From an uncultured Porphyromonadaceae bacterium (GTDB lineage Bacteria; Bacteroidota; Bacteroidia; Bacteroidales; Muribaculaceae): a stretch of DNA of 36,857 nt. Made by a program: the position numbers and the translations under genes. Below the pieces are notes generated by a model. The model did no database searches. It had not been told where the DNA came from and worked only from the letters and a program-made list of their open reading frames with translations. Below, one piece after another: positions 2,352-36,657 of the stretch; positions within the stretch are counted from its first letter, which is position 1; each line of letters opens with the position of its first letter. The stretch lies in contig CAMWQB010000011.1 in NCBI GenBank assembly GCA_947176295.1, positions 1 through 36,857 of the forward strand, read 5' to 3'.

Positions 2352-5351
2352 TTAGAGAATCACCTTCTTGCCGCCCACGATGTAGAAGCCGCGGGGGAGG
2401 GAGATGCTGTTGCGACCCGGGTGGACAGCCACGGGGAAGCTTACGCCGTCGGCGCGGACAACAGTCAGAGTGCAGCTGTCGGGTGCCGTTACGATCAGGC
2501 AGCCGCCGCTCACGCTCACCTCAAAGGCCTCGACAGTCGTGCTTTCCACGCCGCTCACATACTGGCCCGAGAAGCCCTGCGCCGTGTACACGCCGCCGTT
2601 CTTAAGCTCGAGGTCGCTCGTCTGAGGCGTGCCGTTGTTGCTGAAGATTATCATCATCTTAGGCGATGCGTCCGTTACGGTGCACGTAAACTTATGGTAG
2701 CCCGACGCAGGGTCGATGCTCAGCGACTGGCCCGGCCACGTGCCGCCCGAGTAGTTCTTGTTGCCATGGTTGGCATCCCACACCCAAGCATACACAGAAC
2801 CCCAGCCCGAAGCCGAGTTGTCGAAGTAGGCCGTGAAAGTCGTCGGGTCGGTAGGCTCGATCGGGTCGTCGCCGATTTCTCCTGCACCCTCGATGGTCTT
2901 CACGTAGCCCGAGGTCGAGTAATAGCCGCCGTTCACGAAGTCCCAGCCGTCCTTGCAGCACTGGTCGTTGCCGTTGGTGCTGAAGATGAGCTTGGCGCTT
3001 GCCGGAATCTTGCCCGTGCCCGTGTAGGTCCATTTGTAGACGTTGTTGCCAAGATAGGTCAGCGCCTGGCCCGGCCAGTTGCCGCCCGTATAGTTGTTGC
3101 CGTCGCCCCAGAGCCATACGTGCACGGGGTTCCACGACGTGTGCTCGAAGAACACGGCCTGCTCGCCCTCGGCCATTGCCGGCTCAACGGGAGTTTCGGG
3201 CTCCACGCGTTCGCCGCCGGGGGTGGGAGTGTTGCCGCCGTTGGGCTTCACCGTCCACGTCTCCTCAGGCATCGTCTCGTCGGGCCATTCCGTCCAGGCC
3301 TTTTCGACAGGAGCCGTCGTGTAGAGATACTTGCCGTCTTCGCCCACCTTGCCGGGAGCCTTGGTCTTTTCCGTGTCCAGAACATACACGCGCATATTGC
3401 CCTTGCCCGAGCATTTTGCCGTGAGCGTGCCGTTCGAAACGTTCTGCACATCGCCCGTTACGGCATCGACATAGCGGCCGTTGAGCACACCCGTGAAGGT
3501 AGCGTCGCCGCTGATGGTTACGAGCACGTAGGAGTCGGTCTTCGTGTCGGTGTAGCGGCGCTTGAAGGCCATCTTGCCCGAGCAGCCCTCGTTGCTGTAT
3601 TGGCCCTTGCGGAGGGCGGGCACGGCAGCACGGATCTTGTTCAGGCGCTGGATGTGGAGCGCCAGAGGATAGCTCAGCGTCGAAGCAAGGTTGCCCGTGG
3701 CACCGGAATATTCCGCGAAGTCGCTCACGTTCACCGAGCCCTCGATGTAGCCGCCGAAGTAAGCGCGGCCCGTTTCCTTAAGAGCCAGCACCGCACCCTT
3801 GTCGATGTCCTTGCCCTTCTGGAATTCTACTTCCGAGCCATAGTAGATACAGGGAATGCCGCGGAAGCTGAACATCAGGGCCAGATTCTCGGCCCACGTG
3901 TCCTGCGAGCCCTTGAAGCGGTAGTTGCTGTCGGGAGCATAGTCGTGAGAATCGACGTACACCACGTTGTAGGTCGCGTCGTTGTAGAGGTAGTCCTGGC
4001 CACGGACGCCGTAAGCCCCCGCTGCCGAGTTGAAGTTCCAGTGCATGGCGAAGTCGATTACGCTCAGGCCCGAGTACTGGCTGTAGTCGGGCGTGTGGTA
4101 GTCGTTGCCCTTGAGCTTGGCATTGTCGCTCTTGCGCAGGATAGCGTCTGCGTGGCCCTTGTCGTCCTTGGCGCTCTGCTGCACCGACTCCCAGTTCACG
4201 TGGCCGCTCACCGTGAAGTAGTCCTGCGAGCCCTCCGTCTGGGTGGGAATAGCCACAACCTCATCCCACGATGCGGGATTCATGTCCCACGCATAGTCCT
4301 TGTTTTCCTTCCACGTGTAGTAGCAGGGCGAGCAGTTGTAGTTGTCGCCGCGGTAGATCACCTCCATCGAGCGGGCGCACACCTCGCCATACATGAAGAA
4401 GGGCGTGTTGCCGCGCTTGGCCTTGGCCTCGGGGCTCTCGGCCGCTGCCAGGAACTGAGGGAGGAACATCTTGTTGAAGGCCAGACGGGGGATGTGGCCC
4501 GCCGTGTCGATGCGGAAGCCGTCGACACCCATCTTGATGAAGCGCGAGTAGCACTCCACGAGATAGTTCGTTACGGTCGGGTGCTCCGTGTTCAGGTCCA
4601 CGCAGTCGCCGGCGATCTGGCCCCACCAGCGGGAGGGGTCGTCCCAGTCGAACCACGCCTTGTGGTGCCAGTAGTTATGGATGTCGCGGTTGGTGAAGTC
4701 GGAGTTCTTCATCATGGCCAGGCGTGTGCCGTATTGGTCGGCAGGCTTCATCGAAGGATAGTTCTCCGGAAGCTGGCCCCCCTCCGATGCCGGCACCACC
4801 AGCATCGAGGCATTGATGTCGCCCAGATTCTTCGAATAGTCTTTCTTGAACATGCGGCAGAGGGTGTTCTCGCCGAAGTTGCCCGTGTGCTGGATCACGA
4901 TGTCAAGGATCAGCTTCATCCCGCGCTTGTGCACCTCGTCGATGAGCTCCTGGAAAGCCACGTCGGCCCCGGCCGCATCAGCGTCCTTCGACACATAGCG
5001 GTGATCCACCTTCGAGAAGTCCATGGCGTGGTAGCCGTGGTAGTCGAGCCCCGAGCCGTTTTCAACCACAGGAGTGATCCACACGGCCGTGAAACCCAGA
5101 GCCTTGATGTAGTCGAGCTTCTGGATCAGGCCCTTGAAGTCGCCGCGCCATTCCGGGTCGTTGATGTTCTTGTCCCCGTCCCAGCAGTAGACGTTGTTGT
5201 CCGGGTCGCCGTCGTAGAAGCGGGTGGTCATCGCGAAGTAGATGGTCTCGTCGCGGAAGTCCGTCCTGTCGCCCACGAAGGTCGCAGCCTGCGAAGCCAA
5301 AGCCGTCCCGGCCATGAGTGCCCCGCAGAGCAGTCTGTTGAAGTTGTTCAT
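2352..5351 (-). CDS. Secreted GH13 alpha-amylase with two C-terminal CBM26-like starch-binding modules
   Basis: A 999-residue protein that should hydrolyse alpha-1,4-glucans outside the cytoplasm. The chosen ATG (5351) begins MNNFNRLLCG, a clear signal peptide of about 22 residues; the frame stays open upstream but runs into the preceding gene. GH13 motifs are in order: DIVIQHTGN, GVDGFRIDTAGH with the nucleophile Asp282, FFMYGEV with the acid/base Glu323, and VDSHD with Asp470. Two modules of about 90 residues follow (roughly 730-820 and 837-930). Each has the CBM26-type pattern of a VYAW or VHVW strand, WPGQ and an IFSNNG or IFSTNG strand. The last 50-60 residues (ending GFYIVGGKKVIL) resemble a type IX secretion sorting tail. 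It follows the 644-aa CotH gene by 74 bp with no obvious promoter between, so the two are probably co-transcribed. The exact substrate (starch, glycogen, pullulan) cannot be read from sequence. Confidence 0.93.
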   Translation of the reverse strand: MNNFNRLLCGALMAGTALASQAATFVGDRTDFRDETIYFAMTTRFYDGDPDNNVYCWDGDKNINDPEWRGDFKGLIQKLDYIKALGFTAVWITPVVENGSGLDYHGYHAMDFSKVDHRYVSKDADAAGADVAFQELIDEVHKRGMKLILDIVIQHTGNFGENTLCRMFKKDYSKNLGDINASMLVVPASEGGQLPENYPSMKPADQYGTRLAMMKNSDFTNRDIHNYWHHKAWFDWDDPSRWWGQIAGDCVDLNTEHPTVTNYLVECYSRFIKMGVDGFRIDTAGHIPRLAFNKMFLPQFLAAAESPEAKAKRGNTPFFMYGEVCARSMEVIYRGDNYNCSPCYYTWKENKDYAWDMNPASWDEVVAIPTQTEGSQDYFTVSGHVNWESVQQSAKDDKGHADAILRKSDNAKLKGNDYHTPDYSQYSGLSVIDFAMHWNFNSAAGAYGVRGQDYLYNDATYNVVYVDSHDYAPDSNYRFKGSQDTWAENLALMFSFRGIPCIYYGSEVEFQKGKDIDKGAVLALKETGRAYFGGYIEGSVNVSDFAEYSGATGNLASTLSYPLALHIQRLNKIRAAVPALRKGQYSNEGCSGKMAFKRRYTDTKTDSYVLVTISGDATFTGVLNGRYVDAVTGDVQNVSNGTLTAKCSGKGNMRVYVLDTEKTKAPGKVGEDGKYLYTTAPVEKAWTEWPDETMPEETWTVKPNGGNTPTPGGERVEPETPVEPAMAEGEQAVFFEHTSWNPVHVWLWGDGNNYTGGNWPGQALTYLGNNVYKWTYTGTGKIPASAKLIFSTNGNDQCCKDGWDFVNGGYYSTSGYVKTIEGAGEIGDDPIEPTDPTTFTAYFDNSASGWGSVYAWVWDANHGNKNYSGGTWPGQSLSIDPASGYHKFTCTVTDASPKMMIIFSNNGTPQTSDLELKNGGVYTAQGFSGQYVSGVESTTVEAFEVSVSGGCLIVTAPDSCTLTVVRADGVSFPVAVHPGRNSISLPRGFYIVGGKKVIL

Positions 5352-5425
5352 GGAAAATTGTTTAATGATGATAATGATGAATAAGTAAGTGAGTGTAAGT
5401 GTGCTGTGTAAGTGTTTGAGTGCGG

Positions 5426-7360
5426 TCAGAATCTCACGGCGCGGGCCTGGTCGCCACGCACTTCGATGTAGATTTCGCCGCGCACGGGCGTACCGCTCAC
5501 GGGCATCCCCTGAAGATTGTAGAGCTTCACGCTCGCAGGAGCCGCATCGCCCTCGACGGCCGGCCCTTCGATGCCTGAATCCTCGCGTGCATACTCGGGC
5601 AGCGCGGCCGCAGGAGTGGCGTCGCGTTCGGGCTCGGTGGCGCCGGGGTTGGCCGCATAGTCGCCGAATTGACCCTTGAGCCATTCGGTTTTAGCCGAGA
5701 GGTGGTCGCGCACGGCCTGCAGGCGCCTCTCCATGTCTGTGTTGTCCACCACGCCCTGGGCGCCCTCGAAGTCCGGACGCCGTGCGTTTTGCCAGCGCGT
5801 GCGGTCGGCCTTTGCGGCTGCCGCGATGTGCGAGGCATAGGCCGTCAATTCAGGCTCCAGAGCCTTGTAGCCCGTGTTCATGAACCACAGCCACGTCTCC
5901 CGCACCTTCTTGTTGAAGGTCGCGTTCTCGCGCATCGACGGAATCCACGTGTTTCCGTAGTGGTCGCAGTTGTAGAAGAAGTCCGTGGTGCGCCCGTTGA
6001 AGGCGTTGCCGCAATCCCACAGCGGCGAGAAGTGCCACTTCTGCCCTTCGCCACGGTCGCGGAAGAGGTAGGTAGAGCCGTGATATGCCTCGTGGTGGGA
6101 GATTATTTCCTCCACGATGTAGTAGCGAGCCGCATCGTCCAGGTCCATGTAGCTCCACACCTCGTCGGAGTTCGAGCCTATGGCGGAGTTCATGGCCGAG
6201 AACTGGTCGGTGATGAAGCGCTTCTGCAGCTCGGAATATTCCTCGGGCGTGTCCCAGGTGATGCGAAGCTCGTCAATGATGTGCTGCCCGCGTGCGCACG
6301 ACAGCTCAGGCATCCGTATCTGGTTTTCCTCCTCATAGTTGTCCAGCTCCACGATGTAGCCGCCGGAGACCAGCGCAGGTGTGTCCACAAGGTCGTCGAG
6401 TTCCTCGATATTCACCCGCTTCTTGTCCACGCGGATGCTCTCCGTCAGGAAGTAGAGGCCGCGGTAGTCGCCGTTGATTATCACCTCCACCGGCTGCTGC
6501 CAGGGTGTCCAGGGCAGCCCGATGGCCCGCCCGAGGCGGAAGCCCGTGAAGTTGCGCATGTAGCCGTAGTTGTCGTCGGCATGGGCCAGCAGGGCAAAGT
6601 GCTTGCTCTTGCTCAGGCCCAGGAGGCTTTGCTTGGCGCCGAGCTTCAGCTTGAAAGGTTTCTTGGCGAAGGCCTTGCGGGTGTAGTTGCCGCGCGCCTT
6701 TATTTCGAGCGGCAGCGGCTCTTCCTTCGAGCCCACCGATGCCGCCCCCTCGGCCTCGAGCCATTCGCAGCCGTTGTGGTCCAGCCAGTATTCAGCGTTC
6801 GAGAAGTAGTTCTTGTGCGAGAGATTGCGGTCGATGATTTCGGGCTCCAGGGCTGAGTGGCTTTCGTCGGTGTAGACATTGATGTAGAGCACCGGCAGCG
6901 TGCCCGAGAGCATCGGGTTCTGAGGCTCCGCGGGCGCCTCCTTGCCGTTGGCGCTGATGCGCAGATATGTGTCGGCCTTGGGCGCGTCCGGCCGGATGGT
7001 TATGCTCAGCGTTACGTCCGTGAGCCCCACGGCCTTGAAGTTGCCGCCGGTGTATCGCGCCGTCAGCGTCGTCGCGTCAGTTATTTCCAGCGCCGGGTCC
7101 TGCTTTGAGTTCTGAGAGCCGTAGTCGAAGTCCCATTCGTCGCCGGCAATCTTGAAATCGCCGTCGAGGCTGGCCAGATGGAGGGTATAGACCTCTCCTT
7201 CGCGGGTGAAGCGGAAGTCCTCACGGGCGCTCCAGCCCTCGGTCATGCTTCCGCGGAGATATATCTGGGGATAGCCGGAAGCATCCATCGTGTCGGCATA
7301 GGCCATGCCGAAGGCTGCGACAGCCGCGATGGCTCCGGTGAAAAGTCGTTTGAAGTTCAT
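5426..7360 (-). CDS. Secreted CotH-kinase-fold protein, single domain, with N-terminal SusE/SusF-like module
   Basis: A 644-residue protein. The start at 7360 (MNFKRLFTGA) gives a signal peptide of about 22 residues and matches the start of the 1470-aa paralog upstream. Residues about 27-140 form a beta-rich module (YLRGSMTEGW, DGDFKIAGDEWDF) of the kind repeated in SusE/SusF-type starch-binding proteins. Residues about 155-570 are a CotH domain: RGNYTR, KKPFKLKLG, HADDN, NGDYRGLYFLTE, VELDNYEEE, YYIVEEIISHHEAYHG and FSPLWDCGNAF, whose Asp449 is a candidate catalytic metal ligand. The last 40 residues (YNLQGMPV to RGDQARAVRF) form a sorting-like tail. CotH proteins of Bacillus spores are known protein kinases; kinase activity of this secreted Bacteroidota form is inferred only. 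The gene has its own promoter and leads into the amylase gene, suggesting a joint role in starch handling. Confidence 0.85.
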   Translation of the reverse strand: MNFKRLFTGAIAAVAAFGMAYADTMDASGYPQIYLRGSMTEGWSAREDFRFTREGEVYTLHLASLDGDFKIAGDEWDFDYGSQNSKQDPALEITDATTLTARYTGGNFKAVGLTDVTLSITIRPDAPKADTYLRISANGKEAPAEPQNPMLSGTLPVLYINVYTDESHSALEPEIIDRNLSHKNYFSNAEYWLDHNGCEWLEAEGAASVGSKEEPLPLEIKARGNYTRKAFAKKPFKLKLGAKQSLLGLSKSKHFALLAHADDNYGYMRNFTGFRLGRAIGLPWTPWQQPVEVIINGDYRGLYFLTESIRVDKKRVNIEELDDLVDTPALVSGGYIVELDNYEEENQIRMPELSCARGQHIIDELRITWDTPEEYSELQKRFITDQFSAMNSAIGSNSDEVWSYMDLDDAARYYIVEEIISHHEAYHGSTYLFRDRGEGQKWHFSPLWDCGNAFNGRTTDFFYNCDHYGNTWIPSMRENATFNKKVRETWLWFMNTGYKALEPELTAYASHIAAAAKADRTRWQNARRPDFEGAQGVVDNTDMERRLQAVRDHLSAKTEWLKGQFGDYAANPGATEPERDATPAAALPEYAREDSGIEGPAVEGDAAPASVKLYNLQGMPVSGTPVRGEIYIEVRGDQARAVRF

Positions 7361-7416
7361 GGCAGAAGGTATGTTCGGTTTATTGTTTTTTGAGGAAATG
7401 CGATAAAGCTTGTCCG

Positions 7417-7448
7417 CAAAGATACAAAAATATCCACGCGAATGCAAA
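7417..7448 (-). promoter_or_regulatory. Promoter of the 644-aa CotH gene
   Basis: A -7 box TATCTTTG (7417-7424) and a -33 box TTTG (7445-7448) are spaced by 20 bases. The -33 box lies in the T tract of the terminator of the upstream gene. The predicted leader is about 50 nt. Confidence 0.75.
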
Positions 7449-7481
7449 AAAAAGAGCCGCGCTGTCTTAGGCGCGGCTCTT
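7445..7481 (-). terminator. Terminator of the 1470-aa CotH gene
   Basis: An 11-bp stem (AAGAGCCGCGC at 7452-7462 with its complement at 7471-7481) is followed on the minus strand by a T-rich tract ending near 7445. It separates two same-strand CotH genes into distinct units. Confidence 0.85.
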
Positions 7482-7512
7482 CGGTCAGTTTTCGATGGAT
7501 GGGGAAGGAGGC

Positions 7513-10500
7513 TCAATAGCGGATGGTGCGGCCCTTGTCGCCGCGCACTTCGATGTAGTATTCGCCTTCCGCGGGGGTGTCGATGCGGACGCCCTGCAGG
7601 TTGTAGTAGCGCACGGCGGCGGCGCTCTCGGCGCTCACGCTGTCCACGCCCGTAACGATTCCCGAAGGACCGTACACATAGAGGTGGCCGATCTGCTGGT
7701 CTGCAGTCTGGTGGTCGGTGCCTCCGGTGCCATCATTGAAGATCACGTTGTGGCCGTTTTCCACGTCCGTAACCGGGAGAGTTACTTTCCAGAGGGGGCT
7801 GTCCGTGGTCGTGGTGGTGTTGCGGAAGCGTGACGGGGCCTGAGCCATGGAAAGGAGGGTCATCTCCGTGCCGGGCCATGCGCCCAGGAGTTCGACAACC
7901 GGCTGCCCGGCAACCTCGTAGTAGGTGTAGGCATAGACCGTCGACCACGGATTCGCCTTCGTGTCGTTGAAGTAGATTTCCACGAGCTCGGCATCTTCGC
8001 GGGCGTAGGCGGGCAGAGGAGCGGCCTCGGTGGTGTCGCGCTCGGGCTCGGCGGCCGTCGGGTTCTGCGTGTAGTCGCCGAACTGGCCCTTGAGCCAGGT
8101 GGTCTTGGCTGAGAGATGGCTCAGCACTGCGTTGAGGCGTGCGTCCATGTCCGAGTTGTCCACGATGAGCGAGGGATTGTTGCCGTTTGCAGGATTGGGC
8201 ATGGGCTCGTCTTTCCAGCGGGCGCGGTCGGCCTTGGCGGCTTCGGCGATGTGGCCGGCGTAAGCGCGGAGGGCTGCTTCAAGCTGCTTGTAGCCGTCTT
8301 CCTTGTTCATGAACCATGTCCAGGTCTCGCGCACCTTGTCGTTGAACTTGCTGTTGGTGCGAATCGAGGCAATCCACGTGTTGCCGTAGCTTGCGTAGTA
8401 GTTGTAGAAGAAGTTGTTGGTGTCTCCGTCGAAAGCGTGGCCGCAGTCCCACAGCGGCGAGAAGTGCCACTTCTGGCCTTCGCCGCGGTCGCGGAAGAGG
8501 TAGGTCGAGCCGTGGTAAGCCTCATAGTGGGAGATGATTTCCTCCACGAGATAGTAGCGGGCGGCATCGTCGAGGTCCATATATTTCCAGAGCTCATCCG
8601 AGGTATTGGCCGTGCCCACGGCGTTGTTCATGGCCGTGAACTGCTCGCTGATAAACTGCTTCTGAAGCGAGGAATATTCCTCCGGGGTGTCGAAGGTAAC
8701 GAGCAGCTTGTGGGTATAGTTCTGAGGCACGCAAGTCTTCTCCTCCATCTGCAGCTGGTTGCTTTCCTCCTCGTAGTTGTCGAGCTCCACAACGTAGCCG
8801 CCGGAGATCAGGGCCGGAGTGGATTCGTTGTCGTCGAGTGCGGTGATGTCCACACGACCCGATTCCACGCGGATGCTCTCCGTCAGGAAGTAGAGGCCGC
8901 GGTAGTTGCCGTTGATCACCACTTCCACAGGCTGCTGCCCTGGAGCCCAGGGGAGGCCGATGGCGCGGCCAAGCCAGAAACCCGTGAAGTTGCGCATGTA
9001 GCCGTAGTTGTCGTCGGCGTGGGCCAGGATAGCGAAGTGCTTGCTCTTGCTAAGGCCTAAGAGGCTCTGCTTCGAACCAAGCTTAAGCTTGAAAGGCTTC
9101 TTCGAGAAGCCCGTGCGGGTGTAGTTGCCGCGGGCCTTGATTTGCAGCGGCAGCGGTTCTTCCTTCGAGCCTACGGAAGTTGCGCCTTCTGCGGCCATCC
9201 ATTCGCAGCCGTTGAGGTCAAGCCAGTATTCGGCGTTGACGAAATAGTTCTTGTGCGAGAGATTGCGGTCGATGATTTCATCTTCGAAGGCCGTCTTGGT
9301 CTCGTCCGTGTAGACGTTGATGTAGAGCACGGGCAGCGTGCCGGAAAGCCCCTCTACGGGCATGTCTTCGCGGAATAGACCGTCGATGCCCACTTTGAGG
9401 ATGTCGGCGCTGTAGCTGCCGTTGTTCTCGGTTAGGGTCATGCGCAGCGTTACGTTCTGCAGTCCCACGGCCTTGATGTTCTTGCCGTCGAAGGATAGGG
9501 AGAAGTCCGTGATGCCGCTGATGCTTTCGCCCGCGTTCTGAGCGCCGAAGTTCACACCCCATTCTGCATCGGAAATCTTGAAGTCGCCGTCGAGGCTCTC
9601 AAGCTCCAGGGTGTAGACGTTCTGTTTGCGGGTGAACTTATACTCGGGGAGAGCGGGCCAGGTGCCGCCGGTCATAGTGCCGCGGACGTAGAGCTCGGGA
9701 TAGCCCTCGTACAGGTCCACCTCATAGCCTTCCTTGGCATATTCGGGCAGGGGAGCGGCCTCGGTGGCGTCGCGCTCGGGCTCGGCGGCCGTCGGGTTCT
9801 GCGTGTAGTCGCCGAACTGGCCCTTGAGCCAGTTGGTCTTAGCCGAGAGATGGCTCAGCACGGCGCCGAGGCGCGAGTTCATGTCGGTGTTGTCGATCAC
9901 GGCCGACGGATTGTTCGAGCCTGTGCTGTTGGGAAGCGGCTCATCCTTCCAACGCTTGTGGTCGGCAGCGGCAGCCGGCGTGATTTCGGCGGCGTAGGCG
10001 CGCAGGGCTGCTTCAAGCTGGCTGTAGCCGTCTTCCTTGTTCATGAACCATGCCCAGGTCTCGCGCACCTTGTCGTTGAACTTGCCGTTGGCGCGTATCG
10101 AGGGAATCCAGGTGTTGCCGTATGTTACTCCGTTGTAGAAGAAGTTGTTGGTCGGGCCGTTGAAGGCGTTGCCGCAGTCCCACAGGGGCGAGAAGTGCCA
10201 CTTCTGGCCCTCGCCGCGGTCGCGGAAGAGGTAGGTCGAGCCGTGATACGACTCCGTGTGCGAGATGATTTCCTCCACGAGATAGTAGCGGGCAGCATCG
10301 TCGAGGTCCATATATTTCCAGAGCTCGTCGGAGCTGTTTGCCACGCCCACAGCATCGTTCATGGCCGTGAACTGCTCGTTTACGAAGCGGCGCATCAGCG
10401 TCGAATATTCCTCGGGAGTATCGAAGGTTATGCGCAGCTTGTCCGTATGGTAGCCGCCCACGCAGGTCTTTTCAGTCATCTGAATCTGAGACTCCTCGGG

Positions 10501-11925
10501 CTCGTCGTAGTTGTCGAGTTCCACGAGATAGCCGCCGGAGATCAGGGCCGGGTCGTTGGTGTTGTCGTCGAGCGACTCGACAGGCACGCGACCGTCGCCC
10601 ACACGGATGCTCTCGGTCAGGAAATAGAGGCCGCGGTAGTCGCCGTTGATCACCACTTCCACGGGGCGTTGGTCGGGCGTCCAGGGCAGCCCCATCTTCC
10701 GGCCAAGCCAGAAGCCCGTGAAGTTGCGCATGTAGCCGAAGTTGTCGTCGGCGTGAGCCAGAATGGCGAAATGCTTGCTCTTGCTCATGCCTAAGAGTGC
10801 CGTTTTCGCCCCTAACTTTAGCTTGAAGGGTTTCTTCGAGAAGCCCGTGCGGGTATAGTTGCCGCGGGCTTTCACCTCGAGCGCCAGAGGCTCCTCCTTC
10901 GAGCCCACGGAATAGGTGCCCGTGGGGTCCTCGATCCAGTATTCGGAGGTCGTGAAGTAGTTCTTGTGCGAGAGGTTGCGGTCGATTATCTCATTGTTCA
11001 GGGCCGAGTGGGTCTCGTCCGTGTAGACGTTGATGTAGAGCACGGGAAGCGTGCCGGTAAGGAACTCCGAAGGGTCGTTTACCTCGATGGGGTCTTCGAT
11101 AACCGGGCCCGAATTTGCCGTAACTTTCAGCACATCGGCCTTGTACGAGCCGTATTCCTCGTGGAGGGTGAAGCTGAGCGTTACATTCGAGAGGTTCTGG
11201 GCTGTGATGTTCTTTCCGCCGGAGCTAAGGCTGAAGTTGGTAGTCCCGCTGATGCTTTTGATGCTTTCGCCCTCGGTCGGAGCACCGAAGTTCACGCCCC
11301 AGTTTGCATCGGAAATCTTGAACTGGCCGTTGAGAGAGGACTTAGCCAGAGTGTAGACATTTCCTTGACGCGTAAACTTATATGCATCGTCTATAGGCCA
11401 GCTGCTGCCGGTCATCTCCCCGCGGATGTAGAGCACCGGATAGTGGGAGTAGGGGTCCGTCGGGTCGTCGGGGTCGTCGGGATCGATGGCTGCGAATTCG
11501 CCGTTGATGCCCACCCGGAGGGTGTTGATGGTGAAAGAGTTGCCGTTTTTGGCAATGACAAAACGGAGATTCACCGTCTGCTCTCCGTCAATCGAGGCTG
11601 TGATGTTATTGTTTGTAGTGGAGATTGCATAATCGGTAATACCGGTTATGGCTGGCGAATTGGAGGTCGGTGCTCCGTAGTTGATGGTGCTCCAATCCTC
11701 GGTGGCAATCTTGAAGTCGCCGGAGAAGCCGCCGTTGATGGTCAGGTCGTAGGTGTCGCCCGTGCGGGTGAAGTGGTAGGCCTCGTTCAGGCTCCAACTT
11801 CCTGTCATGTCGCCGCGGACATACACTTCGGGATAGCCCTCTGCATCAAGCACATCGGCTGCATGGGCCGCTCCACAGGCCATCGCGGCTGCGAGCATTC
11901 CCGTAAGTAAGCGTTTGAAATTCAT
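7513..11925 (-). CDS. Secreted protein with two CotH-kinase domains, three SusE/SusF-like modules and a CBM26-like module
   Basis: A 1470-residue protein with a signal peptide (MNFKRLLTGM, about 23 residues). Order of parts by approximate residue: beta module 1 (30-140), Asp/Pro linker DPDDPDDPTDP, beta module 2 (160-270), CotH domain 1 (290-700), beta module 3 (738-850), CotH domain 2 (862-1275), CBM26-like module (1308-1415: VEIYFNDTKANPW, WPGTEM, NVIFNDGTGG), sorting-like tail (1430-1470). Both CotH domains keep every motif of the 644-aa paralog, including RGNYTRTGF, NGDYRG or NGNYRG, and PLWDCG; the matching Asp residues are 583 and 1160. It arose by tandem duplication of a module-plus-CotH unit. 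It sits upstream of the single-domain paralog and the amylase but has its own promoter and terminator. A secreted double kinase-fold enzyme that binds starch-like glycan is my inference; the acceptor (protein, glycan or none) is unknown. Confidence 0.85.
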   Translation of the reverse strand: MNFKRLLTGMLAAAMACGAAHAADVLDAEGYPEVYVRGDMTGSWSLNEAYHFTRTGDTYDLTINGGFSGDFKIATEDWSTINYGAPTSNSPAITGITDYAISTTNNNITASIDGEQTVNLRFVIAKNGNSFTINTLRVGINGEFAAIDPDDPDDPTDPYSHYPVLYIRGEMTGSSWPIDDAYKFTRQGNVYTLAKSSLNGQFKISDANWGVNFGAPTEGESIKSISGTTNFSLSSGGKNITAQNLSNVTLSFTLHEEYGSYKADVLKVTANSGPVIEDPIEVNDPSEFLTGTLPVLYINVYTDETHSALNNEIIDRNLSHKNYFTTSEYWIEDPTGTYSVGSKEEPLALEVKARGNYTRTGFSKKPFKLKLGAKTALLGMSKSKHFAILAHADDNFGYMRNFTGFWLGRKMGLPWTPDQRPVEVVINGDYRGLYFLTESIRVGDGRVPVESLDDNTNDPALISGGYLVELDNYDEPEESQIQMTEKTCVGGYHTDKLRITFDTPEEYSTLMRRFVNEQFTAMNDAVGVANSSDELWKYMDLDDAARYYLVEEIISHTESYHGSTYLFRDRGEGQKWHFSPLWDCGNAFNGPTNNFFYNGVTYGNTWIPSIRANGKFNDKVRETWAWFMNKEDGYSQLEAALRAYAAEITPAAAADHKRWKDEPLPNSTGSNNPSAVIDNTDMNSRLGAVLSHLSAKTNWLKGQFGDYTQNPTAAEPERDATEAAPLPEYAKEGYEVDLYEGYPELYVRGTMTGGTWPALPEYKFTRKQNVYTLELESLDGDFKISDAEWGVNFGAQNAGESISGITDFSLSFDGKNIKAVGLQNVTLRMTLTENNGSYSADILKVGIDGLFREDMPVEGLSGTLPVLYINVYTDETKTAFEDEIIDRNLSHKNYFVNAEYWLDLNGCEWMAAEGATSVGSKEEPLPLQIKARGNYTRTGFSKKPFKLKLGSKQSLLGLSKSKHFAILAHADDNYGYMRNFTGFWLGRAIGLPWAPGQQPVEVVINGNYRGLYFLTESIRVESGRVDITALDDNESTPALISGGYVVELDNYEEESNQLQMEEKTCVPQNYTHKLLVTFDTPEEYSSLQKQFISEQFTAMNNAVGTANTSDELWKYMDLDDAARYYLVEEIISHYEAYHGSTYLFRDRGEGQKWHFSPLWDCGHAFDGDTNNFFYNYYASYGNTWIASIRTNSKFNDKVRETWTWFMNKEDGYKQLEAALRAYAGHIAEAAKADRARWKDEPMPNPANGNNPSLIVDNSDMDARLNAVLSHLSAKTTWLKGQFGDYTQNPTAAEPERDTTEAAPLPAYAREDAELVEIYFNDTKANPWSTVYAYTYYEVAGQPVVELLGAWPGTEMTLLSMAQAPSRFRNTTTTTDSPLWKVTLPVTDVENGHNVIFNDGTGGTDHQTADQQIGHLYVYGPSGIVTGVDSVSAESAAAVRYYNLQGVRIDTPAEGEYYIEVRGDKGRTIRY

Positions 11926-11994: not shown

Positions 11995-12026
11995 CAAATA
12001 TACAAAAAAATCCCCGTATTGGCAAA
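11995..12026 (-). promoter_or_regulatory. Promoter of the 1470-aa CotH gene
   Basis: A -7 box TATATTTG (11995-12002) and a -33 box TTTG (12023-12026) are spaced by exactly 20 bases. The predicted leader is about 65 nt. The site lies in the divergent gap shared with the serine acetyltransferase gene. Confidence 0.78.
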
Positions 12027-14804: not shown

Positions 14805-17351
14805 TTAGCGCACAACCACCTTCGTGGCCTTGCTGCCCTGGAGCTTCACGTAGATGCCTGCGGGGAGCTCGCCCGACATTTCCACGCCGTCGAGGCGGAA
14901 GAAGCGTGCGGGAGCTGCGCTGTCGGCTTCGATAGCGTCGATGCCTACGGTGCCGCTGGATTCCTTACCCATCACGCGGAGCTCTTTCAGCTTGATGCCC
15001 CAGCCGGCGTTGAAGGCCTTCGAGGTGTTGAGCGTTACATAGCGACCGGATACGGGCGTTTCTTCGATGAACTGCTTGCGTGCTGTTACGCCTGCACCGC
15101 CTTCGCCATCGGTTACGGTGTAGGTCTTGGTCTCGGCCTTCGCGCGGGCTACCACTGCTTCTGCAGGCAGGTCGGCTTCAACGGTGATGGTGTAGGCCGT
15201 TGCGGATGCGCCTTCCCAGACAACTTCGATCACTTCGATGTCGTGGTTCTTGCCCAGGTCGAGGGCGAAACTGTGTTCTTCGGTGTCGGCGCAGGAGAAT
15301 TCGAGCTGAGTGCCTTCGTTGTCGTCGGTAGCGAAGGCCGGATTGTTGATGGCTGCTTCAGAAGCAACCCCGAGGATGCCGGCTGCAACGTTGGTGGCCT
15401 CCGCGCTGGTGAGGCAGTTGATGGTTACTTCTGCAGAGAAGTCGCCGCAAACGGCTTCTATCACTGCGCTGCCGCGGCCGCCGAGGGTTACGAGGTCGCC
15501 CTCGAGGGTAGCGTTGCCGGAGACGAGGCTCAGGGCCACGTTCTCGTTGAGGAGGAAGTTGCCTTCTGCGTCGGCTGCGTAGTAGGTCAGAGGCACGGCC
15601 ACGTTGGCGGCCACGTCGGTCGACTTAGCCTTGAGAACTACTGCGGCTACGGGGCCGTAAGCCACGGGCTCGTTGGTTTCGCCTACGGTGTAGTTCATGT
15701 TGAAACGGTCCACGCCGCCGGCGTATGCCATCCAGAAGAACATGTCGGCGGGCTTTTCGCCTTCTTCGAATGTCTTGGTCGAGGTATAGGTGTAGACGCC
15801 GTTGGTGTCCTTGCCCATGAGCGAGCCGCTCCATTCGCCGCCGATGTTCACTTCAGGAACCATGCCTACGATCTTGTCCATGCCGTTTACGGAGAAGTTC
15901 ACGGTGATGGTCTTGTCGGCATTGTAGATAGCTTCGGCAAGCATCGATACGGGGAGTTCGCGGCGGGCTGCTTCGGGTTCGCCGGGACGGAGGCCGTTCA
16001 GCACGAAGCCGTTGGTGATGAAGTACTTCACGATAGCCGCGCCGGCTTCACGATAAGTCTTGAAGCTTACGGGAGTTTCGTCCGAAGCATATTCCGTGCC
16101 GTTGAGGGTGGCCATAGCCTTGAAGTTGAAGGTGTAGTCCGTGTAGGCTTCGAGGCCTTCGATGGTGTAGAGGCCGTCGGCGGAGGTTACGTCGGTGTCG
16201 CCCATGAACACCTTCACGTCAGCGCCTTCGAGGCCCTCGGGAAGGGTTACGGTATATTTAACGGTGGCGCTGTTGGTGGTGATTTCGGTCACTTCGAGGC
16301 TGATAGCGGGAATCACGCGCGTGTCTTTCCAGAAGTATACGTTGCCGATGTAGCACTGTGCGCCCGTGTTGCCTTGGTCGAACTTAATCTGGAACACGTC
16401 GTTCATCTCCACGTTATCCCAGTGGCTCAGAGCCACGTCGTAGCTGTTCCATTCGCCCACTTTCACTTCCGAGGCAATCCAGGGTTTTTCTTTTCCCGGG
16501 CTGATGGGGGTGAAGCCGAAGTTGGTCTCCTCGCAGGGGAAGAAATCTACGTGCATGTATTCATAGCCGGTGAGGTCGAGATGGGGGTTCAGCTCCCAGC
16601 CGAGGTAGTTGAAGAGCGTGAGCTTCGCAGCCTGGCGGCCATCGATGTTCACCACCTCATACTGTGTGCTCTGGCCCCAGCCGCCGATGCCGAAGGTGCA
16701 GGCGGGAGTGTAGCCCGAACCGAATACGGACACTACATCCTTGGCTGCGATAGCGGGAGAGGGCACGCTCGTGGGCTCGGGAAGAGTGGGGAGTGCGGGA
16801 GCTGTCCAGCTTTCGTCGATGTCGGTGTAGACCACGTCCTTGAAGTAGATGGCTGCGTCGGAGCTTGCATTTTCAGCTACAACGGAGAAGACATAGCCGC
16901 CGGCCCCCTTGCCGTACTCTTCCCAGGCCTTGGCTACGCCGGGATATGTTTCGGCTACGGAAAGGATGGTTTCGTTCCACTTGCCGGCATTGTCAGCATT
17001 GACGGTGAAGCTATAGTTTTCTTCCACGCCGCCGGTGAGGCGGATGGTATATTTGGCAGTGCCTTCGGCATACCAGTTGAGTTTCAGATTTGCTGAGTGG
17101 AGAGGGCCGGTAATGGAGCCGTTGGAGCAGTTGAGACCCATCGAGCCGGCAGCCCCGCCGCCTTTGACGCTGAATTTGAAAGTCGTGGCTGAGCCGTCGG
17201 GGGCAGCTGCGGCATCGTTGGTCGCGCTGTTCCACCAGTCGAACTTCTGCACGTCGGGCGACATCACGCCATTTGAATAAACGGCAAAGTCGGCTGCATT
17301 GGCTGCGAGCGTGGCCGCTGCAGCTACTGCAAGGGTAAGGATTTTTTTCAT
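14805..17351 (-). CDS. Large secreted glycan-binding-like protein with F5/8-type C-terminal domain
   Basis: An 848-residue protein with a signal peptide (MKKILTLAVA, cut near residue 20). Residues about 20-345 form a two-part beta-rich region shared with the 397-aa neighbour. Its second half (SGYTPACTFGIGGWGQST, NYLGWELN, MHVDFFP, FQIKFDQGN, YIGNVYFWKD) resembles glycan-binding modules attached to Bacteroidota glycoside hydrolases. A fibronectin-III-like segment (about 350-440) and a middle region with a second beta domain follow. Residues about 640-795 look like an F5/8 type C (discoidin) fold: VAAGILGVASEAA, SFALDLG, GRYVTLNTSKA, IKLKELRVMG. The last 40 residues (ARFFRLDGVEM to KATKVVVR) are a sorting-like tail. 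No catalytic motif is visible. It has its own promoter and terminator. Function is unknown; adhesion to a glycan is the best guess. Confidence 0.75.
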   Translation of the reverse strand: MKKILTLAVAAAATLAANAADFAVYSNGVMSPDVQKFDWWNSATNDAAAAPDGSATTFKFSVKGGGAAGSMGLNCSNGSITGPLHSANLKLNWYAEGTAKYTIRLTGGVEENYSFTVNADNAGKWNETILSVAETYPGVAKAWEEYGKGAGGYVFSVVAENASSDAAIYFKDVVYTDIDESWTAPALPTLPEPTSVPSPAIAAKDVVSVFGSGYTPACTFGIGGWGQSTQYEVVNIDGRQAAKLTLFNYLGWELNPHLDLTGYEYMHVDFFPCEETNFGFTPISPGKEKPWIASEVKVGEWNSYDVALSHWDNVEMNDVFQIKFDQGNTGAQCYIGNVYFWKDTRVIPAISLEVTEITTNSATVKYTVTLPEGLEGADVKVFMGDTDVTSADGLYTIEGLEAYTDYTFNFKAMATLNGTEYASDETPVSFKTYREAGAAIVKYFITNGFVLNGLRPGEPEAARRELPVSMLAEAIYNADKTITVNFSVNGMDKIVGMVPEVNIGGEWSGSLMGKDTNGVYTYTSTKTFEEGEKPADMFFWMAYAGGVDRFNMNYTVGETNEPVAYGPVAAVVLKAKSTDVAANVAVPLTYYAADAEGNFLLNENVALSLVSGNATLEGDLVTLGGRGSAVIEAVCGDFSAEVTINCLTSAEATNVAAGILGVASEAAINNPAFATDDNEGTQLEFSCADTEEHSFALDLGKNHDIEVIEVVWEGASATAYTITVEADLPAEAVVARAKAETKTYTVTDGEGGAGVTARKQFIEETPVSGRYVTLNTSKAFNAGWGIKLKELRVMGKESSGTVGIDAIEADSAAPARFFRLDGVEMSGELPAGIYVKLQGSKATKVVVR

Positions 17352-17636: not shown

Positions 17637-18830
17637 TTAGCGCACAATCATCTTCGTGGCCTTTTCGCCCTGACGAACCACGTAGATGCCGGCGGGAAGG
17701 TCGGAACCCTGCATCTCCACGCCGTCGAGACGGAAGTAGCGTGCGGGAGCGACTTCAACTGCGTTCACGTTCTCGATGCCGGTCTTGGTCTTCACGAAAT
17801 ATACGTTGCCGATGTAGCACTGTGCGCCCTTGTTGCCCTGGTCGAACTTCACCTGGAAAATCTCGCTGAGGTCTACGACGTCGCTGAAGTAGCTCAGAGG
17901 CACATCGTAGCCGTTCCATTCGCCGACCTTCACTTCAGAAGCCACATAGCCTTTCTCCTTGGGGCCACGGCTGATGGGAGTGAAGCCGAAGCCGGTCTCT
18001 TCGCTGGGGAAGAAATCAACGTGCATGCTCTCGCATTCGCTCACGTTGAGGTCTTCGTTGAGCTCCCAGCCCAGGTAGTTGAAGTTCACGAGCTTCGCAG
18101 CTTCGCGGCCGTCGATCGTCTCCACGCTGTAGCGGGTGCTCTGGCCCCAGTTGCCCACGCCGAAGGTGCAGGCCGGTGTGTAGCTCGAACCGAAGAGCGA
18201 CACTACCTCGTCGGCTTCATAAGCGGGAGCGGGCACGCTCGTAGGCTCGGGAAGGGTGGGGAGTTCGGGTGCTGTCCATGCCTCGTCGATGTCGGAGTAG
18301 TAAATCTTGCTGAAGTAGATTGCGGCATCGGCGCTTGCTTCTGCGGCGATTACCGAGAATACGTAGCCTGCGCCCTTGCCCGTGTAGTTCTCCCACTGTG
18401 AGGCAACGGTGGGGAAGTATTCGGTTACGGAAATCGAAGTGCCCACCCACGAGTTGGCATTTTCGGCATTGACGGTGAAGGTGTAGTTTTCTTCAGCGCC
18501 GGTCTCGGCCGTGAGGCGGATGGTGTATTTGGCGCTGCCGGTGGCATACCAGTTGAAGTTGAGAGTTGCCGAGTGGAGAGGACCGGTCTTCACGTTTTCG
18601 CCGCTTGTGAAAATGCCCATCGAGCCGTCGGCGCCACCGTTTTCAACGTTGAACTTGAAGGTGTGGTCGTCGCGGTCGGGACTGTTGGTGTCGAAGTTCA
18701 TCCCGGCAGCCCACCAGCCATAGACGTTGAGGTCTGCGGAGAGCTGTCCGTCTTCATATACAACGAAGTCGGCGCCCTGAGCTGCGATTGCGGCGGAGGC
18801 GGCTAATGCAAGAGTAAAAAGTTTTTTCAT
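17637..18830 (-). CDS. Secreted glycan-binding-like protein, short paralog of the 848-aa protein
   Basis: A 397-residue protein with a signal peptide (MKKLFTLALA, cut near residue 20). It aligns over residues about 20-345 with the 848-aa protein just downstream: both share LHSA-L-NWYA, KYTIRLT, SYTPACTFG, WGQST, NYLGWELN, VGEWN-YDV and QCYIGNVYF. It then passes directly, after a short linker, into the same sorting-like tail (ARYFRLDGVEMQ to KATKMIVR), so the roughly 450-residue middle and discoidin-like parts of the longer protein are absent. No enzyme motif is seen. It has its own promoter, interleaved with that of the divergent polyprenyl synthase gene, and a strong terminator. Probably an exported or surface-anchored glycan-binding protein; ligand unknown. 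Confidence 0.75.
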   Translation of the reverse strand: MKKLFTLALAASAAIAAQGADFVVYEDGQLSADLNVYGWWAAGMNFDTNSPDRDDHTFKFNVENGGADGSMGIFTSGENVKTGPLHSATLNFNWYATGSAKYTIRLTAETGAEENYTFTVNAENANSWVGTSISVTEYFPTVASQWENYTGKGAGYVFSVIAAEASADAAIYFSKIYYSDIDEAWTAPELPTLPEPTSVPAPAYEADEVVSLFGSSYTPACTFGVGNWGQSTRYSVETIDGREAAKLVNFNYLGWELNEDLNVSECESMHVDFFPSEETGFGFTPISRGPKEKGYVASEVKVGEWNGYDVPLSYFSDVVDLSEIFQVKFDQGNKGAQCYIGNVYFVKTKTGIENVNAVEVAPARYFRLDGVEMQGSDLPAGIYVVRQGEKATKMIVR

Positions 18831-24450: not shown

Positions 24451-25497
24451 TTATTCAGCCCGGAAGTGGAATTCGATTATTTCGTGAAATGTCTCGCCCG
24501 GGTTTAGGCGCGTGGTGGGATAGTCCGGGCGGTTGGGAGCATCCGGATAGTGTTGGCATTCGATAGCCACGGCGCAATAGTCCTCGTAGACAGCGCCGTC
24601 CTTGCCCGCAGGCGATCCCGTCAGCCAGTTGCCCGTATAGACCTGCACGCCTGGTTGGGTGGTGCGCACTTCCATGCTTCGCCCCGAAGCCGGGTCGCGG
24701 AGAATGGCCGCCGTCTGCAGTTTCCCGGCCTCATAGCCGTCGATAGCCCAGCAGTTGTCATAGCCCTTGCCGTATTTCAGCGCCGGGAAATCGGCCTTGA
24801 TGTCGCGGCCTATAGGCTTTGCCATCGTGAAGTCCATGGGTGTGCCTTCCACCGGAGCCGGAGCGCCCGGCAGGGGGATGAGCGAATCGTCGGTGGGCAG
24901 CCAGCGCGAAGCCTTCAGCTCCAGCGTGTGGCCCAGAACCGAGGGCGAGGCATGGCCGCTCAGATTCCAGTAAGCATGGTTGGTGAGATTCACCACCGTC
25001 GGCTCGCCTTCCACGATAGCCTCGAGGTCGAGCCGCAGACTGTTGTCGTCGTTCCAGGTATAGGTGGCGCGTGCTGTCAACCGCCCCGGATAGCCCTCTT
25101 CGCCCGCAGCCGACGTGTATTGCATCACCACGTGGTCAGCGTCGTGCTCCACGAGCGTCCAGAGCCTGTTCTGGAAGCCCGTCGGGCCGCCGTGGAGATG
25201 GTTGGGCCCATTGTTCACGGCCAGCGTGAATTCCTTGCCGTCGAGGCTGAAGTGCCCGCGGGCTATGCGGTTGGCATATCGGCCGGGCACCTTGCCGGCG
25301 CAGGGGCCGTCGGCGAGATAGTCGGCGGGATTTTCGTAGCCTAAGACCACGTCGGCCATGCGGCCCTCGCGGTCAGGCACACACACGCTCACGATTCCTG
25401 CACCCAGAGTGCTCAGGGTGGCCGTGGCGCCCGAGGCGTTCGTCAGGGAGATGAGCGTGCCTTCGCCCAAGGGAGTGGAGAAGTGTGTCAGTTTCAT
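24451..25497 (-). CDS. galM: Galactose mutarotase (aldose 1-epimerase)
   Basis: A 348-residue enzyme interconverting alpha and beta anomers of galactose, feeding galactokinase. Family motifs are NHLHGGPTGF, NLTNHAYWNLSG with catalytic His174, and AIECQHYPDAPN with catalytic Glu313. YPTTRLNPGE sits near the C-terminus. There is no signal peptide, so it is cytoplasmic. The start overlaps the galK stop (ATGA), the mark of coupled translation. It is the last gene of the GH2-galK-galM unit and ends directly against the DUF2752 stop codon. No terminator hairpin is visible downstream. Confidence 0.96.
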   Translation of the reverse strand: MKLTHFSTPLGEGTLISLTNASGATATLSTLGAGIVSVCVPDREGRMADVVLGYENPADYLADGPCAGKVPGRYANRIARGHFSLDGKEFTLAVNNGPNHLHGGPTGFQNRLWTLVEHDADHVVMQYTSAAGEEGYPGRLTARATYTWNDDNSLRLDLEAIVEGEPTVVNLTNHAYWNLSGHASPSVLGHTLELKASRWLPTDDSLIPLPGAPAPVEGTPMDFTMAKPIGRDIKADFPALKYGKGYDNCWAIDGYEAGKLQTAAILRDPASGRSMEVRTTQPGVQVYTGNWLTGSPAGKDGAVYEDYCAVAIECQHYPDAPNRPDYPTTRLNPGETFHEIIEFHFRAE

Positions 25498-26630
25498 AGC
25501 TTGCGTGCGCCGTCGCTGATGATTACTTCATAGATCTTGGGCTCATGGCCGTAGCGGGCCGCGAAATCCTTGCGTGCCTTTTCGACGAAGGGCTCCAGGA
25601 GTTCGTCCTTCACGAGGTTGATGGTGCATCCACCGAAGCCCCCGCCCATGATGCGCGAGCCCGTAACGCCGCACTCGCGGGCTATATCGTTGAGATAGTC
25701 AAGCTCCTCGCAGCTCACCTCATAGTCTTTCGAGAGGCCCTCGTGGGTCTCGTACATCCGCTTGCCCACGGTCTCGTAGTCGCCGGCCACGAGAGCATCG
25801 CACACGTCCAACACGCGCTGCTTCTCCTCGATCACGAATTTGGCGCGCGAGTAGTCCTCGGCCGAAATATCGGCCTTGGCAGCCTCGAGCATCTCCATGG
25901 TGGCATCGCGGAGGGTTTCCACGCCGAGGCGTTTAGCCACGCGTTCGCACGATTCGCGGCGCTTGTTGTAGGGCGAATCGGCAAGTTCGTGTTTTACGAC
26001 CGAATCCAGAAGCACGAGCTTATAGCCCTCGGGCTTGAAGGGGAAGTATTCATATTCCATCGAACGGCAGTCGAGACGCATCAGGTGGTCCTTGCGACCG
26101 AAGACGGAAGCGAACTGGTCCATGATGCCGCAGTTCACGCCGCAATAGTTGTGTTCCGTGCTCTGGCCGATGCGGGCGAGCTCGAATTTGTCGATACTGC
26201 CGCCGTTGAACATATCGTTCAGCGCGAAGGCGAAGCAGCTCTCCAAGGCAGCCGACGAGCTCAGGCCTGCGCCCAGGGGCACATTCCCGGCAAATACGGC
26301 GTCGAAGCCCTCGACCTTGCCGCCGCGCTTGATGATCTCGCGGCACACACCGAAGATATAGCGGGCCCAGCTCTGCGAGGGGGCATCCTCTTCGGCAAGC
26401 CCGAACTCAGCGTAGTCCTTGATGTCGATGGAGTAGACGCGCACCTTTTCGCTGCCGTTGGATTTGAGCTCGGCCATGATCACCTTGTCGATGGCGCCCG
26501 GGAAGACGAAGCCGCCGTTATAGTCGGTGTGTTCGCCGATGAGGTTGATGCGGCCTGCGGAGGCGTAGAACACGCCGCCCTCGCCGAAACGCGATTCAAA
26601 TTCTCGCGAGATTTTTTCTTTCAGTTCCAT
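25494..26630 (-). CDS. galK: Galactokinase
   Basis: A 378-residue GHMP kinase phosphorylating alpha-D-galactose with ATP, the entry to the Leloir pathway. GRINLIGEHTDYNGG is the galactokinase signature, PLGAGLSSSAALE the ATP-binding glycine/serine loop, Asp171 in GIMDQFASVFG the catalytic base, and GSRIMGGGFGG the third GHMP motif. It is 41 bp downstream of the GH2 beta-galactosidase gene and overlaps galM by four bases. Its place behind galactan-degrading genes says the galactose it uses comes from that polysaccharide. galT and galE are not in this window. Confidence 0.97.
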   Translation of the reverse strand: MELKEKISREFESRFGEGGVFYASAGRINLIGEHTDYNGGFVFPGAIDKVIMAELKSNGSEKVRVYSIDIKDYAEFGLAEEDAPSQSWARYIFGVCREIIKRGGKVEGFDAVFAGNVPLGAGLSSSAALESCFAFALNDMFNGGSIDKFELARIGQSTEHNYCGVNCGIMDQFASVFGRKDHLMRLDCRSMEYEYFPFKPEGYKLVLLDSVVKHELADSPYNKRRESCERVAKRLGVETLRDATMEMLEAAKADISAEDYSRAKFVIEEKQRVLDVCDALVAGDYETVGKRMYETHEGLSKDYEVSCEELDYLNDIARECGVTGSRIMGGGFGGCTINLVKDELLEPFVEKARKDFAARYGHEPKIYEVIISDGARKL

Positions 26631-26671
26631 TGTTTTCAGAAGGTATTGAGGTTGTCAGTTATGTCGGGAGT

Positions 26672-29107: not shown

Positions 29108-29134
29108 GGTATAGGGTTTTCTTGGGTAGATGTG

Positions 29135-29142
29135 CAAATATA
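29135..29142 (-). promoter_or_regulatory. Possible promoter (-7 box) of the GH2-galK-galM unit
   Basis: TATATTTG matches the -7 consensus, 27 bases before the GH2 start. The nearest TTTG (29157-29160) is only 14 bases upstream instead of 20, so the site is uncertain. It lies just beyond the terminator of the GH53 gene. Confidence 0.42.
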
Positions 29143-29155
29143 CGTATTTCTAACG

Positions 29156-29188
29156 ACAAAAGACCACGGTGTGGCCGTGGCCTTTTGT
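29156..29188 (-). terminator. Terminator or attenuator between GH53 and GH2 genes
   Basis: A hairpin with an outer ACAAAAG/CTTTTGT stem, one mismatch and an inner CCACGG/CCGTGG stem begins 11 bases after the GH53 stop. The T residues lie in the descending arm (CTTTTGT) rather than after it, so some read-through into GH2 is possible. Confidence 0.65.
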
Positions 29189-29198
29189 TAAAATAGAC

Positions 29199-30266: not shown

Positions 30267-30281
30267 GTCTCTTTCTTGTGC

Positions 30282-31985: not shown

Positions 31986-32015
31986 TGCTGTCGTGTGTAT
32001 ATGGATAGCGGGTGC

Positions 32016-33584: not shown

Positions 33585-33615
33585 TGTCGTGTCTTTGTGA
33601 TGTTGGCGGGGTTGT

Positions 33616-36600: not shown

Positions 36601-36657
36601 CCCGAGGCCGAGTAGCGTCAGCCCGCTCTGTGGCTTACTGTGGCTTTTCTGTGTCAT
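33616..36657 (-). CDS. SusC-family TonB-dependent outer-membrane transporter
   Basis: A 1013-residue outer-membrane importer. The signal peptide core is LSAALLIALAAIAGL, ending near residue 41. A carboxypeptidase-regulatory-like domain follows (about 46-125: VSGTVLDELGEPLIGASV). The TonB box region is EMVVIGYGTQ. The plug domain includes LINGKIAGVQI, RVRGGASL, PLIVLDGVPM, and DIESMTVLKDASSTAIYG with ASNGVIIITTKKG, a hallmark of SusC proteins. The barrel ends in an aromatic residue (LTIGLNF). It is the first complete gene of the galactan locus and pairs with SusD downstream. No promoter is evident in the 52 bases upstream, so it may be transcribed together with the partial gene at the right edge. 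Confidence 0.97.
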   Translation of the reverse strand: MTQKSHSKPQSGLTLLGLGRRLSAALLIALAAIAGLTATAQGTARTVSGTVLDELGEPLIGASVTAVGDRAGVTTDIDGNYSIKIAAATRQLVFSYVGYTTQTLDIPAGSERLDVSLHPSSESLQEMVVIGYGTQKKNDLTGSVAAVSEKDFNKGVISSPEELINGKIAGVQITNNGGSPNSGSTIRVRGGASLNASNDPLIVLDGVPMEVGGGITGSGNFLSMINPNDIESMTVLKDASSTAIYGSRASNGVIIITTKKGGGERAKVSFQTTNSLSNAARHAPMLSTEQFRNEIMATGNRDYIAALGTENTDWNDAIFRTGFGTDNNISIGGRATKWLPYRVSLGAMYQEGILKRDNVARYTANLNLTPTFFGDKLRVNLSGKGSYSHNRFSNSGAIWNALAYDPTQPIYGNYDPAGNELLFTDGTPLMGGYHEIIDKNGHPGQGAIANPLAMVEIPDNTADVYRFIGNADVDYRLHPLPELRFHLTGGLDWASGKSKYFLSQNSFSGYNDGGLKNEQGPQKNINRLLTVYANYNKEFEAINSTVDATIGYDYQYWKSSCPAYDSYNEAGEYRYTTAAWDERHSLISYYGRLNYSYDSRYLLTATFRRDGSSRFAKSNRWGTFPSVALAWRVAGESFWESVKPVMNDLKIRVSYGVTGQQDGINNYSYIPNYTLSQPGAFYWFNGQWIQTARPDAYNSNLKWETTKSWNFGADMAFLNNRFTASVDYYTRKTHDLLATVPIPAGINFAKEMLTNVGNVDSKGVEIALTAHLINTRDWQWDATFNATWQDNKITNLSLNPESEASDTYVGYAESTPVMVYKTGYAPHTFWVYKQIYDESGTPVEGLYADLNGDGIVDANDRYYYHNAHPDWMLGFSTSLRWKKWTLSTSLRAQLGNYLYNQMSANMGASECFSWCSGQVNNLSASYADTHFTKKRYESDYYVENASFLKMDNLQLTYDFGKLGPIDGLHLSAMVQNVFTITKYKGLDPESDWGIEGSAYPRPRTYSLTIGLNF

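Follow-up and report, generated by a model that had tools for sequence, protein, structure and literature searches.

Starch-module-bearing CotH-fold proteins with an altered catalytic motif beside an alpha-amylase gene in a Muribaculaceae bacterium

A 36,857-nucleotide stretch of DNA (hereafter the window; contig CAMWQB010000011.1 of assembly GCA_947176295.1, positions 1 to 36,857) from the 2.2-Mb genome of an uncultured Porphyromonadaceae bacterium, placed in the Muribaculaceae by GTDB, carries on its minus strand, in this order, cotH1 (11925-7513), cotH2 (7360-5426) and a gene for a GH13 alpha-amylase (5351-2352). The two CotH proteins combine CotH domains with modules of starch-binding type, a fusion that recurs among relatives, and all three of their CotH domains carry glutamate in place of the catalytic aspartate of Bacillus CotH. 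We propose, with moderate confidence, that these are starch-adherence proteins with a repurposed CotH-fold domain, likely not a kinase of the Bacillus type, and that their link to the amylase is local. Window positions given below refer to the minus strand unless stated otherwise.

Pfam analysis identified CotH (PF08757) once in the 696-residue open reading frame containing cotH2 and twice in the 1470-residue frame of cotH1, with scores of 113.9 and 190.3 bits against a curated cut-off of 23.8. The cotH1 product (1470 residues; 7513-11925) comprises a signal-peptide-like start, two X25/SusE-type modules (11491-11841 and 11113-11457), CotH domain a (9916-11043), a third X25/SusE-type module (9346-9720), CotH domain b (8191-9330), a CBM26 module (PF16738; 7693-7974; E 4.5e-8, 33.6 bits against a cut-off of 28.1) and a short C-terminal domain (7516-7689). 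The product of cotH2 (644 residues; 5426-7360) has a signal-peptide-like start, a single X25/SusE-type module (6986-7279), one CotH domain (5762-6892) and a short C-terminal domain. In the 1110-residue frame of the amylase gene (2352-5351), a signal-peptide-like start is followed by a GH13 region (3465-5294; E 1.9e-41) and two CBM26 modules (2925-3164 and 2607-2828), for which PF16738 scored 73.3 bits against the same cut-off. The starts at 7360 (cotH2) and 5351 (amylase), at which the signal-peptide-like sequence begins, are the likely ones and replace earlier assignments at 7516 and 5684. The original prediction of three CotH domains in two adjacent proteins that also carry SusE-type and CBM26 modules, with a CBM26-bearing GH13 amylase as their neighbour, is thereby confirmed by Pfam and, for the CotH proteins, also by fold and contact residues. 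The predicted fold of the CotH domains is the CotH kinase fold, as had been claimed. The CotH proteins received no NCBIfam name at E 0.01, and a phmmer search of the PDB with cotH1 returned nothing relevant, a profile search being required instead. A 987-residue open frame antisense to the amylase (2421-5384, plus strand) is likely an artefact of base composition.

Evidence for the character of the SusE/SusF-like modules, three in cotH1 and one in cotH2, comes from their fold, which matches the X25/SusE type, and from the residues through which module Sca5X25-2b contacts malto-oligosaccharides. In an alignment of 38 modules (A3; 34 of 53 listed modules plus the four from the window), these contacts are almost fully kept: W620 in 37, K654 in 38, W661 in 38 and N687 in 37. 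Profile comparison also matched SusE 4FCH weakly (E 0.014), and CBM53 was matched by five of the 38 (best 8e-6). There was no significant Pfam SusE match, PF16411 appearing in one of the 38 members at E 0.038 and PF14292 not being among the 24 Pfam families listed for them. Fold and contact residues together nevertheless support the proposed identity of these modules, and with it the claim that the proteins carry starch-binding modules.

The fusion is a recurring one. Among 80 related loci, in 79 of which a CotH gene was called (L142 has none), we counted 82 CotH proteins, of which 49 carry X25, 17 carry CBM26 and 58 carry one or the other. None of 23 CotH proteins taken from the best Pfam scorers of the order has either module, a contrast that is partly built in because the 80 loci were selected for their resemblance to the window.

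The active site was read using residue roles drawn from PMC7821199 and PMC12189002, both available in part. According to the available text, the substitution D228Q abolishes the function of B. subtilis CotH (PMC7821199), and CotH has three PKA-like active-site residues (listed in PMC12189002). The three window domains have Glu at the D228 place (PKA D166-like; Glu424 of cotH2, codon 6089-6091), Ser instead of the metal-ligand Asn (PKA N171-like) and Asp at the D251 place (PKA D184-like; Asp449 of cotH2, codon 6014-6016). The same pattern prevails across 130 domains, which are not all independent, as some genomes occur in both collections: the D228 place reads Glu in 114, Asp in eight and another residue in eight, Ser occupies the Asn place in 120, and Asp is found at the D251 place in 128. 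The adenine-stacking tryptophan (Trp245) is present in all 130, and the adenine partner Tyr142, assigned by position only, is aromatic in 129. Every one of the 114 Glu-type domains retains the Trp, the Asp of the D251 place and the Ser, and residues E424, H427, G428, S429, W448 and D449 (cotH2 numbering) are invariant in 56 aligned proteins (alignment A2, consisting of window cotH2 and 55 CotH proteins picked by length from 82; alignment A1 holds 28 of 30 domains, and A4 12 of 13 together with the window's). The nucleotide- and metal-binding site expected of a CotH kinase is therefore kept in part, with the second essential Asp and the adenine-stacking Trp in place, but kinase activity is not to be assumed, because the catalytic Asp has become Glu and the Asn ligand has become Ser.

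Outside this group, CotH domains of other Bacteroidales were sampled from 30 loci, each a short stretch surrounding one of the top Pfam scorers. Thirteen could be parsed by motif, in four more (L167, L168, L170 and L171) visual inspection shows an Asp ahead of the WD motif, and 13 lack a readable motif. All 13 parsed domains have Asp at the catalytic place and 10 have Ser at the Asn place; for one of them (L191) the search pattern caught a later Asp, and the L191 motif itself also reads Asp and Ser. In a FastTree phylogeny of 143 rows, computed with the motif columns removed and taking in 13 of 17 extra Asp-type domains, the Glu, Asp and other states need four changes, with long branches flagged. 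On the basis of this count, Glu arose once or very few times and was then kept, which favours a function, though not necessarily that of a kinase, over simple decay. Nine multi-CotH proteins (L119, L120, L124, L133, L134, L136, L137, L139 and L141) have R, S, K, N or D, and not Glu, at the catalytic place of the last copy compared, as if that copy had diverged; in L133 and L134 it also lacks the second Asp.

An amylase match (E 1e-20) was obtained in 13 of 37 genomes of the genus, the window genome included; outside that genome, no GH13-bearing match among those listed shares a contig with a CotH match, within the limits set by contig breaks. In one genome (G019 C2), a match to CBM26 only and a CotH gene share a contig at a distance of about 32 kb, and in another (G029) the upstream side of a 77% amylase orthologue is out of view because the orthologue starts at a contig edge. 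No amylase orthologue occurs in the 80 related CotH loci. The closest relative found by cotH2 identity is SRR14411245_bin.3 (completeness unstated), in which one locus (L093) shares synteny with the window on the cotH1 side. In a second locus (L085), the cotH2 orthologue is followed directly by tRNA-Asp with no amylase between; the same tRNA-Asp (2055-2129; 93% over 236 bases) follows the amylase in the window. The relative has only a 58% amylase homologue elsewhere in its genome, together with a CBM26 match. Because the L085 orthologue abuts the tRNA gene without an amylase, the cotH2-amylase arrangement appears to be recent and lineage-specific, by gain in the window genome or loss in the relative; less probably, it reflects a misassembly of the window genome. 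A conserved kinase-amylase operon is rejected, as no GH13 orthologue was found beside CotH in relatives, so far as their contigs reach, or at the L085 site; the recurring CotH-amylase linkage, whose lack the original prediction named as refuting, was thus not found in relatives and is missing at the matching site of the closest one found.

Within the window, the three genes likely form two transcription units, cotH1 alone and cotH2 with the amylase. Between cotH1 and cotH2 lie a terminator-like hairpin of 12 pairs with a T-run (7451-7482) and a promoter-like site of cotH2 (TTG ... TATCTTTG; 7417-7447), the latter a consensus match only and absent from the sigma-70 scan list. A promoter-like site of the Bacteroidetes type, likewise a consensus match only, precedes cotH1 (TTG ... 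TATATTTG; 11997-12025), and a further terminator-like hairpin (2299-2329) follows the amylase; promoter-like and terminator-like sites are no more frequent in this region than in shuffled sequence. The gap between cotH2 and the amylase measures 74 bp, and no -7 type match was found within 180 bp ahead of the start of the amylase, a stretch that takes in this gap; such a match is present upstream in six of eight other parsed amylase relatives. From the short gap and the missing consensus promoter match, we infer that cotH2 and the amylase are co-transcribed. An Rfam scan of the window returned a tRNA and nothing else.

The translations of cotH1, cotH2 and the amylase gene all begin with a signal-peptide-like sequence and show no lipobox, and both CotH proteins are probably secreted. 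Two components of the type IX secretion machinery were searched for and both are encoded in the genome, namely PorV (E 7.6e-124) and the SprA N-domain (E 4.9e-183). The short C-terminal segment of cotH1 is of a kind common among proteins of the genus, is repeated on many proteins from related genomes and is a possible secretion signal; NCBIfam sorting-domain models gave no match for five C-terminal segments. Given the presence of SprA and PorV and the recurrence of this segment, type IX secretion of these proteins is plausible. Two further window genes with signal-peptide-like starts (14805-17351 and 17637-18830), whose products have weak F5/8-type or no Pfam matches, resemble one another in DNA sequence and have syntenic counterparts in L093, and the protein encoded at 14805-17351 has the same short C-terminal segment as cotH1.

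The account that we favour and rank first is that cotH1 and cotH2 would be exported and held on starch or malto-oligosaccharides by their X25/SusE-type and CBM26 modules. Their CotH domain would retain a fold like that of kinases and the greater part of the nucleotide pocket; because Glu has replaced the catalytic Asp, and Ser the Asn ligand, it most likely no longer acts as a Bacillus-type protein kinase, and it is probably a conserved ligand-binding, assembly or altered-chemistry domain displayed at the starch surface. In the window genome, cotH2 may have come to head a short transcription unit, in which it is joined by the gene for a CBM26-bearing amylase that would cut the same substrate. 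Several points weigh against this account. The altered motif is invariant and not decaying, which would fit a retained chemical role; Glu could still serve as a base; and the Asn-to-Ser change need not mean inactivity, because 10 of the 13 parsed Asp-type Bacteroidales domains also have it. With respect to adherence, the two X25 modules of Sca5X25-2 failed to bind when expressed singly (PMC9112005, available in part), and cotH2 carries just one; single SusE/SusF modules do bind (same source). Finally, the proposed co-transcription follows from an intergenic distance and a missing consensus match.

The domains could instead be active CotH kinases that use Glu as the base and are brought by X25 and CBM26 to starch, where their phosphorylation target would be the glucan, the amylase or a different surface protein. 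We rank this explanation second and regard it as unlikely, given that extracellular ATP is scarce and no partner gene recurs among the neighbours compared. The loss of function in the D228Q variant of B. subtilis CotH (PMC7821199) and the change of two of the three PKA-like residues listed in PMC12189002, so far as the available text of these sources goes, also speak against it. Its model would be the glycan xylosylkinase Fam20B, which has an atypical kinase fold related to that of CotH (the available part of PMC12189002 names Fam20C) and acts on sugar (PMC7948968). Somewhat more doubtful, and ranked third, is the explanation that CotH serves Bacteroidales generally as a module for the surface or for matrix assembly, that the fused modules bind diverse glucans, and that the amylase is a neighbour by chance. 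It agrees with the finding of no amylase beside CotH in relatives and its absence from the matching site of the closest one found, with neighbourhoods that are mostly unconserved between the 24 loci compared, and with the composition of the same-strand neighbours: 70 of 80 such neighbours (set A5, 10 doubtful frames having been dropped) match 124 families, and the 25 shown include no glycoside hydrolase and are unrelated to starch except for one aldose epimerase. The near-invariance of the X25 malto-oligosaccharide contacts speaks against it, as do a CotH gene beside a type I pullulanase gene and another beside an esterase-CBM26 gene in the window genome. So does a count over these 80 loci, in which Pfam confirms GH13 for four of 150 genes immediately next to CotH and for one of the 576 others (p 0.007, in a post hoc test chosen after the neighbours had been seen); those four (L105, L108, L113 and L153) are of kinds other than the window amylase, and none of them lies in the same direction. 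A more novel and likewise improbable reading is that the Glu-type CotH works as an enzyme, its catalytic base changed, and modifies alpha-glucan or proteins bound to it on starch surfaces in the gut, as a bacterial, starch-tethered counterpart of Fam20B.

SusE and SusF are outer-membrane lipoproteins of the susCDEF locus. The starch-adherence proteins proposed here resemble those of B. thetaiotaomicron in their X25-type modules (PMC9112005, available in part), and differ from them in that their translations show no lipobox and the amylase has no susCD pair beside it. By fold match, they also resemble R. bromii Sas20 and Sca5, in which X25-type starch-binding modules occur in non-hydrolytic surface proteins, although the architectures shown in the available part of PMC9112005 contain no CotH and rely on cohesin/dockerin assembly. 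Compared with the spore-coat kinase CotH of Bacillus subtilis and B. cereus (PDB 5JD9/5JDA), they have Glu where it has its catalytic Asp and Ser where it has the Asn that binds metal, and they add signal-peptide-like starts, starch-binding modules and sometimes more than one CotH domain. Another parallel is provided by cellulosomal CotH, represented by C. thermocellum CseP (Cthe_0044, numbered directly after Cel9N, Cthe_0043) and by dockerin-CotH proteins of anaerobic fungi, for which structural or kinase roles have been speculated (PMC6083626, PMC12484212 and PMC8665504, each available in part). There too, secreted CotH domains are tied to polysaccharide-degrading machinery in a role that those sources leave unsettled, but in dockerin complexes acting on plant cell walls, whereas the proteins here have X25 and CBM26, no Pfam dockerin match and a Bacteroidales host. 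The claim that no system of this form had been described therefore holds in part: no description of a starch-binding CotH protein was found among the matches listed from titles and abstract beginnings of open-licence literature, but cellulosomal CotH was already a known theme (PMC12484212, in its available part), of which the starch-bound family is best read as a variant. Secreted CotH proteins are reported from the cellulosomes of fungi and of bacteria, where their role is not settled. A Bacteroidales family that has starch-binding modules built in and uniformly carries Glu for Asp offers a small, expressible system for studying CotH function at polysaccharide surfaces, and allows one to ask whether CotH phosphorylates anything there. 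A Glu-type member occurs in L091, and a strain may be available because the record is titled as an isolate (Muribaculaceae bacterium Isolate-013).

Other neighbours of CotH genes hint at a wider link to alpha-glucans. In the window genome, an Asp-type CotH gene lies directly upstream of the type I pullulanase gene (TIGR02104, 779 bits) on the same strand (L007, 4136-8403); no pullulanase neighbour was found for the orthologues of this CotH gene in other genomes. A Glu-type CotH gene of the same genome is followed after about 60 bp by the gene for the esterase with a CBM26 module (L009, 1235-4805). In L140 (9492-11126), a CotH gene is followed on the same strand, about 40 bp away, by a gene for a SusF_SusE/X25-type protein; this had been a candidate for a fifth GH13 neighbour and was rejected on its Pfam assignment, as was a candidate non-adjacent GH13 protein (L105, 1-2532), which has no Pfam match. 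A window-wide Sus locus was likewise ruled out, the SusC/SusD pair (33616-36657 and 32016-33584) being accompanied by GH53 and GH2 and lying some 27 kb from the amylase. This pair belongs to a separate locus (24451-36657) that encodes SusC, SusD, a SusE-like protein (DUF5111/DUF5114), GH53, GH2 and an aldose epimerase, and that, judging from these families, is probably directed at pectic galactan.
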